From positions 1 to 25,264 of the IMG/VR virus record IMGVR_UViG_3300044641_000215: DNA of 25,264 bases. One strand, written 5' to 3'. The notes below the pieces were generated by a model, which saw only the letters and a program-made list of their open reading frames with translations, was not told the DNA's origin and made no database searches. A program made the position numbers and the translations under genes. The stretch is from a virus. This document shows positions 18,059 to 21,270 of this stretch, in pieces. Position 1 is the stretch's first letter, and every line of letters begins with the position of its first letter.

Positions 18059-18687
18059 GCTACATAATTGGAAACTTACCGCCGATTAAGTGTTTTGTGC
18101 GGCGTGAGTATTTGTATAACTTTGAGAAAGGCCACGGTGAGCTTGAGCCTTGCATTTGGGTAAGCATCAAGGCCATTCGTGGGCAAGTGTTTCGCATTGA
18201 AAGCCTGTTGCCACGGTACGGCGCTTTGTACGACAAACTGCCTATTCAGGCTTATGTATGGCACATTGATAGTCGTGCTGAGCTACCGTTTGACGTTTTG
18301 CAACTATGGGATTGCATGGGTTACAGGTTTACGGTCCATGAAAAGATTGGTTTGCGTAACCTTGGGGTTAAGTTCTTAGGTAAAGACAAAGAATGGCATT
18401 TTGGTGAATACCTGTTTACGGTAGACTTTTGTGCAGACGGCATGGATGTAGACACAGGATTTACTGAGGTTGCTGAAGAACACAAAAGTTTTAACTTTAT
18501 TCGGTTAGACAATGGGCAATTTGCAGCGCAGCCTAACAACCGTTGCCTTTGGTACGATCAGTCGTTAATACCAGCTAAAACTGACTTCCCAGACTTTCAG
18601 GCATCACGGCATATTTGGACTGTAGACGGGTCACGCAAATGGTCAGCTGGTGACGATTGGTTCTACGACATTGGGGAACGGGAGTGA
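18055..18687 (+). CDS. Conserved phage protein of unknown function
   Basis: A 210-aa protein; the ATG at 18055 is in an ATGA overlap, so an in-frame ATG further upstream (18022) is not used. Motifs I recall from phage hypothetical proteins of this region appear in order: IIGNLPPIKCFVRREYLYNF (about 4-23), CIWVSIKAI, YGALYDKLPI, LQLWDCMGY, GEYLFTVDFC, EEHKSFNFIRLDNGQFAAQP (about 143-162) and RKWSAGDDWFY near the end. It is soluble, beta-rich and conserved, with no catalytic motif evident. Function unknown. Confidence 0.65.
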   Translation: MSYIIGNLPPIKCFVRREYLYNFEKGHGELEPCIWVSIKAIRGQVFRIESLLPRYGALYDKLPIQAYVWHIDSRAELPFDVLQLWDCMGYRFTVHEKIGLRNLGVKFLGKDKEWHFGEYLFTVDFCADGMDVDTGFTEVAEEHKSFNFIRLDNGQFAAQPNNRCLWYDQSLIPAKTDFPDFQASRHIWTVDGSRKWSAGDDWFYDIGERE

Positions 18688-19007
18688 AAGACCAACACGA
18701 TGCAATTGATTACATATACAACACAGCACCGATCTATGGACAAGCTAAAGGTCGAGTTGCTGAACTGGAGGCATACAAGCACAGCCTACGGGCAATTATG
18801 ATGAGCAAATCAAAGGAAACCACAATTGGCGGTCAAGAGAAAGAAGCCCTTGCAAGCCCTGAATATCAAAACCTATGCAAAGCTATAGGTGAGGCTACAG
18901 AAACGGCTGAAACGCTTAAATGGCGGCTTGAAAGTGCCAAAATGCGTTTTGAATCATATAAAGTTGAGCAATATAACAATCGACAAATAGACAAAATGGT
19001 AAAATAG
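18684..19007 (+). CDS. Conserved helical phage protein of unknown function
   Basis: A 107-aa protein. I place the start at the GTG at 18684, forming a GTGA overlap with the gene before and preceded by GGGGA; family members start M-K-D-Q-H-x-A-I-D. The protein is nearly all helix: DAIDYIYNTAPIYGQAKGRV, then EAYKHSLRAIMMSKS and a heptad-like C-terminal half. Proteins with this pattern are widespread in Proteobacteria phages, often before a HNH or nuclease gene as here. Its stop codon lies in a small hairpin (GGTAA/TTACC, 18999-19013). Confidence 0.65.
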   Translation: MKDQHDAIDYIYNTAPIYGQAKGRVAELEAYKHSLRAIMMSKSKETTIGGQEKEALASPEYQNLCKAIGEATETAETLKWRLESAKMRFESYKVEQYNNRQIDKMVK

Positions 19008-19013
19008 ATTACC

Positions 19014-19080
19014 GTAGCAACTACCTTTAGCGGGGGAAAAGACGATTCATCACCGTCCTGTTGCTGCACTTCCGTGATGA
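19014..19080 (+). ncRNA. Candidate pseudoknotted RNA element before the HNH gene
   Basis: The 95-nt gap 19008-19102 has more pairing than expected. GTAGCAAC (19014-19021) pairs with GTTGCTGC (19060-19067), one G-U. Inside, GACG (19041-19044) pairs with CGTC (19054-19057), leaving a loop holding TCATCAC (19047-19053). That loop is perfectly complementary to GTGATGA (19074-19080), outside the first stem. This is an H-type pseudoknot topology. It fits neither a terminator nor a group I intron core. A cis-regulatory leader of the HNH gene, or a self-contained RNA, is possible. Confidence 0.4.
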
Positions 19081-19102
19081 CTTTGCCTAGATGGGGTGAA
19101 TT

Positions 19103-19588
19103 ATGATTACTCAAGAATTGTTAAATCAAAATTTTTATTACAAAAATGGTGGTTTATATTGGATTTCAGATAGAAATTACAGAGCAAAAAAAGATCAAAA
19201 AGCTGGTAGTTTAGGCACAGGGCATCGTTATTGGCATATTCAAATAAAACAAAAAACAATAGCCGAACATAGAGCAATATTTTTAATGCATCACGGATAC
19301 TTGCCCAACTTTGTAGACCATATTGACAATAATGCGTTAAACAATAAAATTGAAAATTTAAGAGAATCAACTTGTTCGCAAAATCAATACAATTCAAGAG
19401 TAAGAAAAGATAGCCGATCAAAAATTAAAAATGTTAAATGGCATAAAGCTACGCAAAAATGGATGGTTTGCGTCAGAGTTAACAAAAAAGAAAAGTATTT
19501 TGGTATTTATGATGATATTGAATTAGCCGAGCTGGTGGCAACAGAAGTAAGAAACAAATACCATAAAGAATTTGCGAGGCATCAATGA
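19103..19588 (+). CDS. HNH homing-type endonuclease with AP2-like DNA-binding end
   Basis: A 161-aa protein. The HNH core lies at about 54-88: AEHRAIFLMHHGYLP, VDHIDNNALNNKIENLR, with the D-H pair at 72-73 and the downstream N residues. The C-terminal part (about 105-155), KIKNVKWHKATQKWMVCVRV then KYFGIYDDIELAEL, resembles the AP2 DNA-binding domain that phage HNH homing enzymes use. Its base composition is much more A/T-rich than its neighbours, a sign of mobility. Its stop overlaps the next start (ATGA). It is a paralogue of the gene at 20776. It may be a free-standing homing gene, since no intron core is visible. Confidence 0.85.
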   Translation: MITQELLNQNFYYKNGGLYWISDRNYRAKKDQKAGSLGTGHRYWHIQIKQKTIAEHRAIFLMHHGYLPNFVDHIDNNALNNKIENLRESTCSQNQYNSRVRKDSRSKIKNVKWHKATQKWMVCVRVNKKEKYFGIYDDIELAELVATEVRNKYHKEFARHQ

Positions 19589-19758
19589 TCGACTATTCTG
19601 AAAGCCTAATTAAGCTGACCGCAATGCAGAACCAATACCGAAAACTTGTATTGCAAGGAAAATATGAAGCAGCAGCTGACGTTGCTGTGGATATGCAGAT
19701 TGTGGTTGTAGACTTGCAACAATGGACTGAGGATCAAGTTGACCAAAGCGCAACGTAA
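19585..19758 (+). CDS. Small helical phage protein, unknown function
   Basis: A 57-aa frame starting in an ATGA overlap with the HNH gene. It is helical (SLIKLTAMQNQYRKLVLQ, then KYEAAADVAVDMQIVVVDLQ) and its last 20 nt overlap the Ref-like nuclease gene. The start codon could have been created or altered when the HNH gene was inserted, since the HNH stop is joined so closely. No family recognised. Confidence 0.55.
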   Translation: MIDYSESLIKLTAMQNQYRKLVLQGKYEAAADVAVDMQIVVVDLQQWTEDQVDQSAT

Positions 19759-20775: not shown

Positions 20776-21270
20776 ATGGATAAGTCTAATTTTATTCTTA
20801 CAAAAGAATTATTGCAAAAGCATTTTGAGTACAAAGATGGCAATTTGTATTGGAAAACCAAAGGTACGGGCATTTTACGAGAACGATCTGGTTGGGTTGA
20901 TGGGCTTGGATATGCTTGTATTGGGTTTAAAAGAAAAACGTACAAAGCGCACAGATTGATTTATTTGATGCACCACGGTTATTTGCCTAAGATTGTTGAC
21001 CACATTGATGGAAACCCTAAAAACAATCAAATTGCCAATTTGCGTGAAGCACAAATGATTGAAAACGTGTGGAATCAAAAGAAACGTAGTACAAACACAA
21101 CTGGCGTTAAAGGTATTAGTTACAGTAAAAAAGCCAAAAAATACACGGCTAGATGCATGAGTAACGGGGTTAGCTTTTTTATAGGTCAATTTGATAAACT
21201 TGAAGATGCAACCCAAAATTTAATGGCGTTTAGAAATAAAGCTCACGGTTCTTTTGCTAGACATGAATAG
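20776..21270 (+). CDS. Second HNH homing-type endonuclease, paralogue of the first
   Basis: A 164-aa protein with AAGGAG 7 nt before the ATG. HNH core at about 58-90: KAHRLIYLMHHGYLPKIVDH, then IDGNPKNNQIANLR. The C-terminal domain (about 108-160) has TTGVKGISYSKKAKKYTARC followed by FIGQFDKLEDATQ, the AP2-like DNA-binding motif. It shares layout and the ARH ending with the protein at 19103 (FARHQ there, FARHE here). It is less A/T-rich than that gene but still more so than its neighbours. It stands alone, with its own leader hairpin, and looks inserted between the DUF5856 and 21280 genes. Confidence 0.85.
   Translation: MDKSNFILTKELLQKHFEYKDGNLYWKTKGTGILRERSGWVDGLGYACIGFKRKTYKAHRLIYLMHHGYLPKIVDHIDGNPKNNQIANLREAQMIENVWNQKKRSTNTTGVKGISYSKKAKKYTARCMSNGVSFFIGQFDKLEDATQNLMAFRNKAHGSFARHE

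Follow-up and report, generated by a model that had tools for sequence, protein, structure and literature searches.

An int-alpA family RNA ahead of a phage HNH endonuclease gene, and its possible role as a portable leader controlling translation

The int-alpA RNA and its neighbours

The window analysed here is a 25,264-nucleotide stretch of viral DNA (IMG/VR record IMGVR_UViG_3300044641_000215), and the element of interest and its flanking genes all lie on the plus strand. An open reading frame of unknown function (18657–19007) stops 6 nt before an RNA element at 19014–19080, and relatives in which the site is empty mark this point as the insertion junction. Behind the RNA lies a gene for an HNH_3 endonuclease of 161 amino acids (19103–19588; PF13392, E 3e-13; phrog_99, E 2.5e-55), whose stop codon is overlapped by the ATG of a small open reading frame (19585–19758) that abuts the upstream frame in the empty-site relatives.

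The element matches the Rfam family RF02996 (int-alpA) over the full length of the model (positions 1–71) with 38.7 bits, the gathering threshold being 35.8; the E value is 7.4e-5 for the whole window searched against 4227 Rfam families and 8.8e-7 for 301 bases. A preliminary description made from the letters alone had placed a pseudoknot signature here, at coordinates that coincide with the Rfam match from end to end, base for base. int-alpA is a known RNA family, of which the RNA in the window is a member, and this is the sole Rfam match in the window. No Rfam match to a group I or II intron, a known ribozyme or a riboswitch was found at the element, no tRNA was found, and no terminator was found in 18850–19150, and the preliminary description had likewise excluded a terminator and a recognisable intron core. 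Its further suggestion of a ribozyme-like or processing element found no support here, no ribozyme family matching at E≤1. Membership of the C4 antisense RNA family (RF01695) was also rejected, as the C4 model does not match at E≤1 and gives 74.9 bits with the phage P4 positive control. We found no described function for int-alpA: literature searches by RNA name, motif or accession, which did not cover the family's original description, returned only its presence in two STEC genomes.

The outer helix P1 pairs 19014–19021 with 19060–19067 in 8 pairs, one of them T-G, as seen in the sequence, the fold and the Rfam alignment. It encloses two hairpins, P2 (19024–19035; CCTT at 19024–19027 with GGGG at 19032–19035, loop TAGC), supported by the Rfam alignment and the fold, and P3 (19041–19057; 19041–19044 with 19054–19057), supported in addition by covariation, as is its 9-nt antisense loop ATTCATCAC (19045–19053). 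Between the hairpins lies the conserved junction GAAAA (19036–19040), identified from the Rfam consensus alignment and from relatives. The Rfam alignment places the family's CUA, GAAAAG and CUG junctions and the enclosure of P2 and P3 by P1 in the window, and relatives carry compensating changes. The preliminary description had given P1 and P3, both present exactly as described, and had missed P2 and the parts downstream. It had also noted that the loop bases TCATCAC (19047–19053) are complementary to GTGATGA at 19074–19080, a match that is exact in the sequence and recurs in relatives; we refer to this 7-mer, a pseudoknot partner or decoy that occurs once near the RNA and 3 times in the window, as copy 1.

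The Rfam model ends at copy 1, which stands in the 3' tail that the consensus line shows as unpaired, and thus copy 2, the hairpin P4, the link to the Shine-Dalgarno site and the promoter fall outside it. P4 is predicted by the centroid fold at 19082–19100 (19082–19088 with 19094–19100, loop AGATG), where it covers the Shine-Dalgarno region GGGGTGA (19093–19099), which we identify from the sequence and from its position, that of copy 2 and the Shine-Dalgarno site in relatives; folding energies here are ordinary. Within the P4 loop is copy 2, a second complement of the P3 loop. It was recognised from the sequence and from tests on the family, and relatives carry TGATGA at this position; in the window it is weak, just the 4 nt GATG (19090–19093), complementary to CATC of the P3 loop. 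The preliminary description had correctly recorded GGGGTGAATT ahead of the HNH start codon at 19103. Copy 2 and P4 may already be in print.

A candidate promoter, an extended -10 sequence TGgTAAAAT at 18997–19005, overlaps the end of the upstream frame. The transcript expected from it would begin at about 19012, right at the base of P1, and we infer that this sequence is the window's own promoter, acting without a -35 element; a 12-base promoter scan omits it because the -35 is missing. Support comes from the viral relatives: of 45 nonredundant cases, 35 have a -10-like hexamer at a distance of 7–16 nt upstream of P1 (shuffles 12.2, maximum 25 of 500), as against 3 to 10 for each of four further upstream intervals of equal width. 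The signal is weaker in the mainly bacterial set (39 of 130; shuffles 18.2, maximum 31), in which the RNA often stands 6–20 nt past the upstream stop codon.

The minimum-energy fold of 19005–19110 includes P1, P2 and P3, and its energy is ordinary relative to shuffled sequences (z -0.06). Folding of this one sequence would not by itself establish the RNA, whose significance rests on the match to the family and on the covariation seen among relatives.

Covariation of the stems, the loop and its two complements

Viral relatives were gathered by a search based on RusA (70 loci), by RNA-pattern searches and by a search based on the HNH protein (21 loci). Bacterial loci came from a pattern scan, several of whose 57 matches were plainly chance, and from RF02996 searches, which were positive in 40 of 41 chosen genomes, in 70 of 300 from the order of G011 (Duganella), in 10 of 295 from the order of G040 (Pluralibacter) and in 5 of 190 from the class of G041 (Telmatospirillum). 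The candidates were reduced from 203 to 198 and then to 197, and 35 of the 197, many with a longer P2, were dropped for having fewer than 7 of the 8 P1 pairs. This left 162, of which 148 were distinct; seven that lacked a nearby gene or a clear RNA were removed by hand. The final set comprises 120 instances, mostly bacterial with a few phage loci, whose start codon lies 26–46 nt after P1. A subset of 87 instances has less than 90% identity to each other, and the viral set holds 50 nonredundant instances with 20 different loops.

In these relatives P1 encloses P2 and P3, and the P3 loop is complementary both to copy 1 and to copy 2, the latter standing beside the start codon and usually in P4 at the Shine-Dalgarno site. 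Summed over the 120 instances, the longest Watson-Crick runs between loop and copy 1 come to 610, as compared with 475±8.5 (maximum 501 of 300) when loops are swapped among loci, a permutation that does not fully remove shared ancestry; the corresponding values for copy 2 are 639 and 535±8.6 (maximum 561 of 300). Control stretches of 18 nt give 363 upstream of the RNA and 385 after the start codon. Phage P4 has an upstream copy of the loop's complement; in the present set the 18 nt preceding the RNA show no enrichment of the complement (n=120). Runs of at least 4 with both copies are present in 96 of the 120 instances, and of the 115 with a copy-2 run of at least 4, 99 have that run ending 5–10 nt short of the start codon. 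The 87-instance subset gives 462 for copy 1 (355 permuted, maximum 384 of 1000) and 468 for copy 2 (385 permuted, maximum 412 of 1000). For the 50 viral instances we count 318 paired bases between loop and copy 1 (permuted 201±10.7, maximum 244 of 1000) and 232 between loop and copy 2 (permuted 182±6.2, maximum 204 of 1000), with a copy-1 run of at least 5 in all 50. As the loops ATTCGTTAC, ACTTATCAC, GCCCCTAAC and others have their own matching copies, copy 2 is not merely a repeat of the Shine-Dalgarno sequence.

A P4-like hairpin is found in 68 of the 87 relatives (shuffles 41.6, maximum 49), and copy 2 sits in its loop in 50 of the 87. The calculated strengths of the two loop pairings are similar (medians -7.5 kcal/mol for copy 1 and -7.9 kcal/mol for copy 2, n=120), as a two-state switch would need, and since copy 1 is the stronger in 38 of the 120 instances the balance leans towards copy 2.

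The helices themselves also covary. Among the 87 relatives P1 is 98% paired and P3 100% paired, and double changes occur at all 8 positions of P1 and all 4 of P3; as the instances were preselected for P1 and P3, it is the changes that count and not the pairing percentages. Covariance, which the preliminary description had named as a check, thus bears out both of its stems and its loop-tail pairing, and what it described is a real conserved RNA with a pseudoknot partner. Where P1 has exactly one non-Watson-Crick pair, this is G-U in 27 cases, A-C in 4 and another pair in 10, and the excess of G-U over A-C points to an RNA of this strand. The excess is not seen in the loop-copy pairings (4 G-U and 6 A-C for copy 1, 3 and 7 for copy 2). 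The first 4 nt after P1 form a pyrimidine-rich linker whose third base is C in 68 of 96 relatives; such a C-bearing linker is reminiscent of a tRNA-like 3' end, and hence of RNase P processing.

Genes behind the RNA and the insertion site

The name int-alpA refers to a setting between integrase and AlpA genes that is frequent in RF02996 and not required for it, and this setting is absent in the window, where the neighbours are the frame of unknown function and the phage HNH gene. Elsewhere the upstream gene is a tyrosine integrase in 45 of 94 cases and AlpA is the second downstream gene in 11 of 59, which fits the family name, and many int-alpA copies stand away from an integrase. Most of the genes that immediately follow the RNA belong to no known family: only 9 Pfam families appear among 83 representatives, the commonest being HNH_3 with 3 of the 83, and PADLOC gives scattered matches, 3 of them homing endonucleases. 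In the loci L202–L400 these genes encode unrelated proteins, many of 150–300 amino acids and mostly without a Pfam family, between integrase and alpA; in these integrative elements they are possibly cargo or defence genes. Two tandem int-alpA RNAs lie 692 nt apart in L402 (2912–4707), the first preceding a broken copy of the gene behind the second, after which comes an AlpA-like gene; this looks like a duplication.

Near-identical RNAs stand before unrelated genes. Among 113 distinct loci, 72 pairs share the RNA at 90% identity or more and just 7 of the 72 have a similar downstream protein. In such pairs the mean identity is 0.93 for the RNA, 0.69 for the leader, 0.61 for the 100 nt upstream and 0.57 for the 100 nt after the start, the baseline for unrelated stretches being 0.55. 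An integron-like second repeat behind the cargo gene was looked for and rejected, there being no common element (38 of 5460 pairs share DNA there). An exact match to the 25-base RNA core of the window is present in 70 viral contigs, in which the core is followed by HNH_3 at 38 and DUF1376 at 25 (Pfam), and by primosomal or replication proteins at 29 (PHROGs). The RNA is therefore not specific to HNH genes, as the same core also leads replication genes.

At the junction in the window itself the RNA and the HNH gene go together. Among phages linked to the window by RusA, protein mapping shows at least 19 contigs in which the frames corresponding to the end at 19007 and the start at 19585 adjoin directly, the stop codon of one overlapping the start codon of the other; at 13 such empty junctions the bases themselves were inspected. 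RNA and HNH gene are present together in the window and in L002, L023, L038 and L039, and no junction was found with just one of them, so in this clade the two entered together. A comparison of phages with and without the HNH gene, proposed in the preliminary description, gives joint presence or joint absence at this site and the same core before replication genes elsewhere. The idea put forward there that the RNA predates the HNH insertion is contradicted for this clade by the joint presence and absence and by the empty sites. Absence of the gap from homologues with the same flanking genes had been offered there as grounds for refuting the element; such homologues exist, but they remove only the greater age of the RNA and leave the rest of the description standing. 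Between the window and L038 and L039 the RNA is 96% identical and the 22 nt before the start are 100% identical, and the upstream frame (67%) and the HNH gene (63%) less so.

The junction is a hotspot, as other small open reading frames, without the RNA and nearly all with ATGA stop/start overlaps, occupy it in 13 contigs examined (L004, L013, L018, L019, L020, L022, L024, L026, L028, L042, L044, L065 and L066). The RNA was rejected as a fixed part of the HNH family: relatives of about 50% identity in other settings (L474–L482) are without it, as is L484, and the nuclease does not need it. A second HNH gene in the window (20776–21270), which belongs to the same phrog and shares about 38% identity with the first, lacks an int-alpA RNA; the gap before it holds a different hairpin and a plain AAGGAG site. 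In L485 (about 1260–1340) an RNA of the same plan, recognised by eye and below the Rfam cut-off, stands before another HNH gene, its loop and both copies matching a TGACT core. L062 (5065–5797) has repeated, inverted pieces of the terminase gene close to the end of the contig, probably an assembly artefact.

A possible translational switch and its alternatives

We propose that the int-alpA RNA is a portable cis-acting leader that gates translation of the next gene, here the HNH gene, a reading drawn from sequence comparison to which we assign a probability of roughly 0.6. Control of translation of the homing gene was among the options raised in the preliminary description, and of these it is the one best supported by the sequences. 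In this model transcription would start at or just before P1, and in the three-way junction made by P1, P2 and P3 the P3 loop would be exposed as an antisense element. Two mutually exclusive partners would then be open to the loop: copy 1, with which it would make the pseudoknot, and copy 2, within or next to the Shine-Dalgarno site. With copy 2 paired, the ribosome-binding site would be closed (the off state); with copy 1 paired as a decoy, it would be released (the on state). What sets the switch may be the order in which the RNA folds as it is transcribed, the arrival of a ribosome at the stop codon of the upstream gene, 6 nt ahead of P1, or some factor that binds at the conserved junction. 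Promoter, RNA and leader would make up a control unit that can be carried in front of unrelated genes and that in this clade came with the HNH gene, the expression of which may be kept low or timed apart from the surrounding translationally coupled operon.

Two known systems offer analogies. The C4 antisense RNAs (phages P1 and P7, the cI RNA of phage P4) resemble int-alpA in having an outer stem, two hairpins and an antisense loop in a phage element, and a loop complementary to the ribosome-binding site is found in the int-alpA family as well, if weakly (4 nt) in the window. C4 has two loops, a' and b', whereas int-alpA has one loop with two downstream partners. In homing endonuclease genes of the T4 type (I-TevI, segB, mobE) the Shine-Dalgarno site can be closed by RNA structure (PMC2988022), as proposed here for another homing-type nuclease; the T4-type structures are simple hairpins with a late promoter inside, whereas the window has a conserved family with an antisense loop and a decoy that also stands before many other genes. 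By analogy, int-alpA may work like the C4 antisense RNAs and the T4 homing-gene structures, yet it is not a member of C4.

The likeness to C4 also suggests an RNA acting in trans, in which the P1–P3 module is excised or made as a short transcript and its loop represses transcripts carrying the same target, the downstream copies being those targets; this would give an immunity-like specificity. The shared topology (outer stem and two hairpins, the second with a large loop) agrees with it, as do the typing of the family as sRNA by Rfam, loops that are diverse yet common to several elements, and the occurrence of one loop type ahead of HNH genes in some viruses and of replication genes in others; C4 loops cover one target at the ribosome-binding site and one specificity site (PMC5320573, PMC12197685). 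However, the RNA stands at a fixed place before a start codon on the same strand, as a cis element would, no terminator separates it from the gene in the window, and the C4 model is without a match there, and we consider a trans-acting RNA doubtful.

Less probable still is a switch worked by a host factor or metabolite that binds at the conserved junction (CUA, GAAAA, CUG) and chooses the pairing. The junction bases are conserved while the helices vary and there are two exclusive pairings, and the sensed signal would have to be a general one, since the genes behind the RNA share no function; but no known riboswitch matches, nothing points to a ligand, and the junction bases may simply hold the fold. 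That the element works as DNA, as a recombination site or cassette boundary near integrases behind which cargo genes are exchanged, seems very improbable. Such a site would be in keeping with the integrases upstream, the unrelated genes behind near-identical RNAs and the insertion with HNH at one junction, but it is hard to reconcile with the one-strand G-U excess in P1, with the fixed relation to start codon and Shine-Dalgarno site, and with the many copies not beside an integrase. Chance complementarity in a compact phage gap, for which the ordinary folding energy might speak, is excluded for practical purposes by the full-length Rfam match and the covariation.

Returning to the cis-acting leader, a broader and more tentative extension is that int-alpA RNAs form a widespread unit of promoter, two-state antisense switch and ribosome-binding site that spreads among the genes of phages and integrative elements. 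If the loop type sets a specificity group, the RNA of one element could act in trans on all leaders of the same type in the cell, and homing nucleases that share a loop with viral replication leaders would be tied to, or interfere with, the control of phage replication.

int-alpA is an orphan RNA family, and the arrangement of loop, copy 1, copy 2 and start codon makes a translation switch testable. The occurrence of almost identical leaders in front of genes unrelated to one another would imply that regulatory RNAs move as modules through mobile elements, and would explain how homing nucleases can settle in a coupled operon without being over-expressed.
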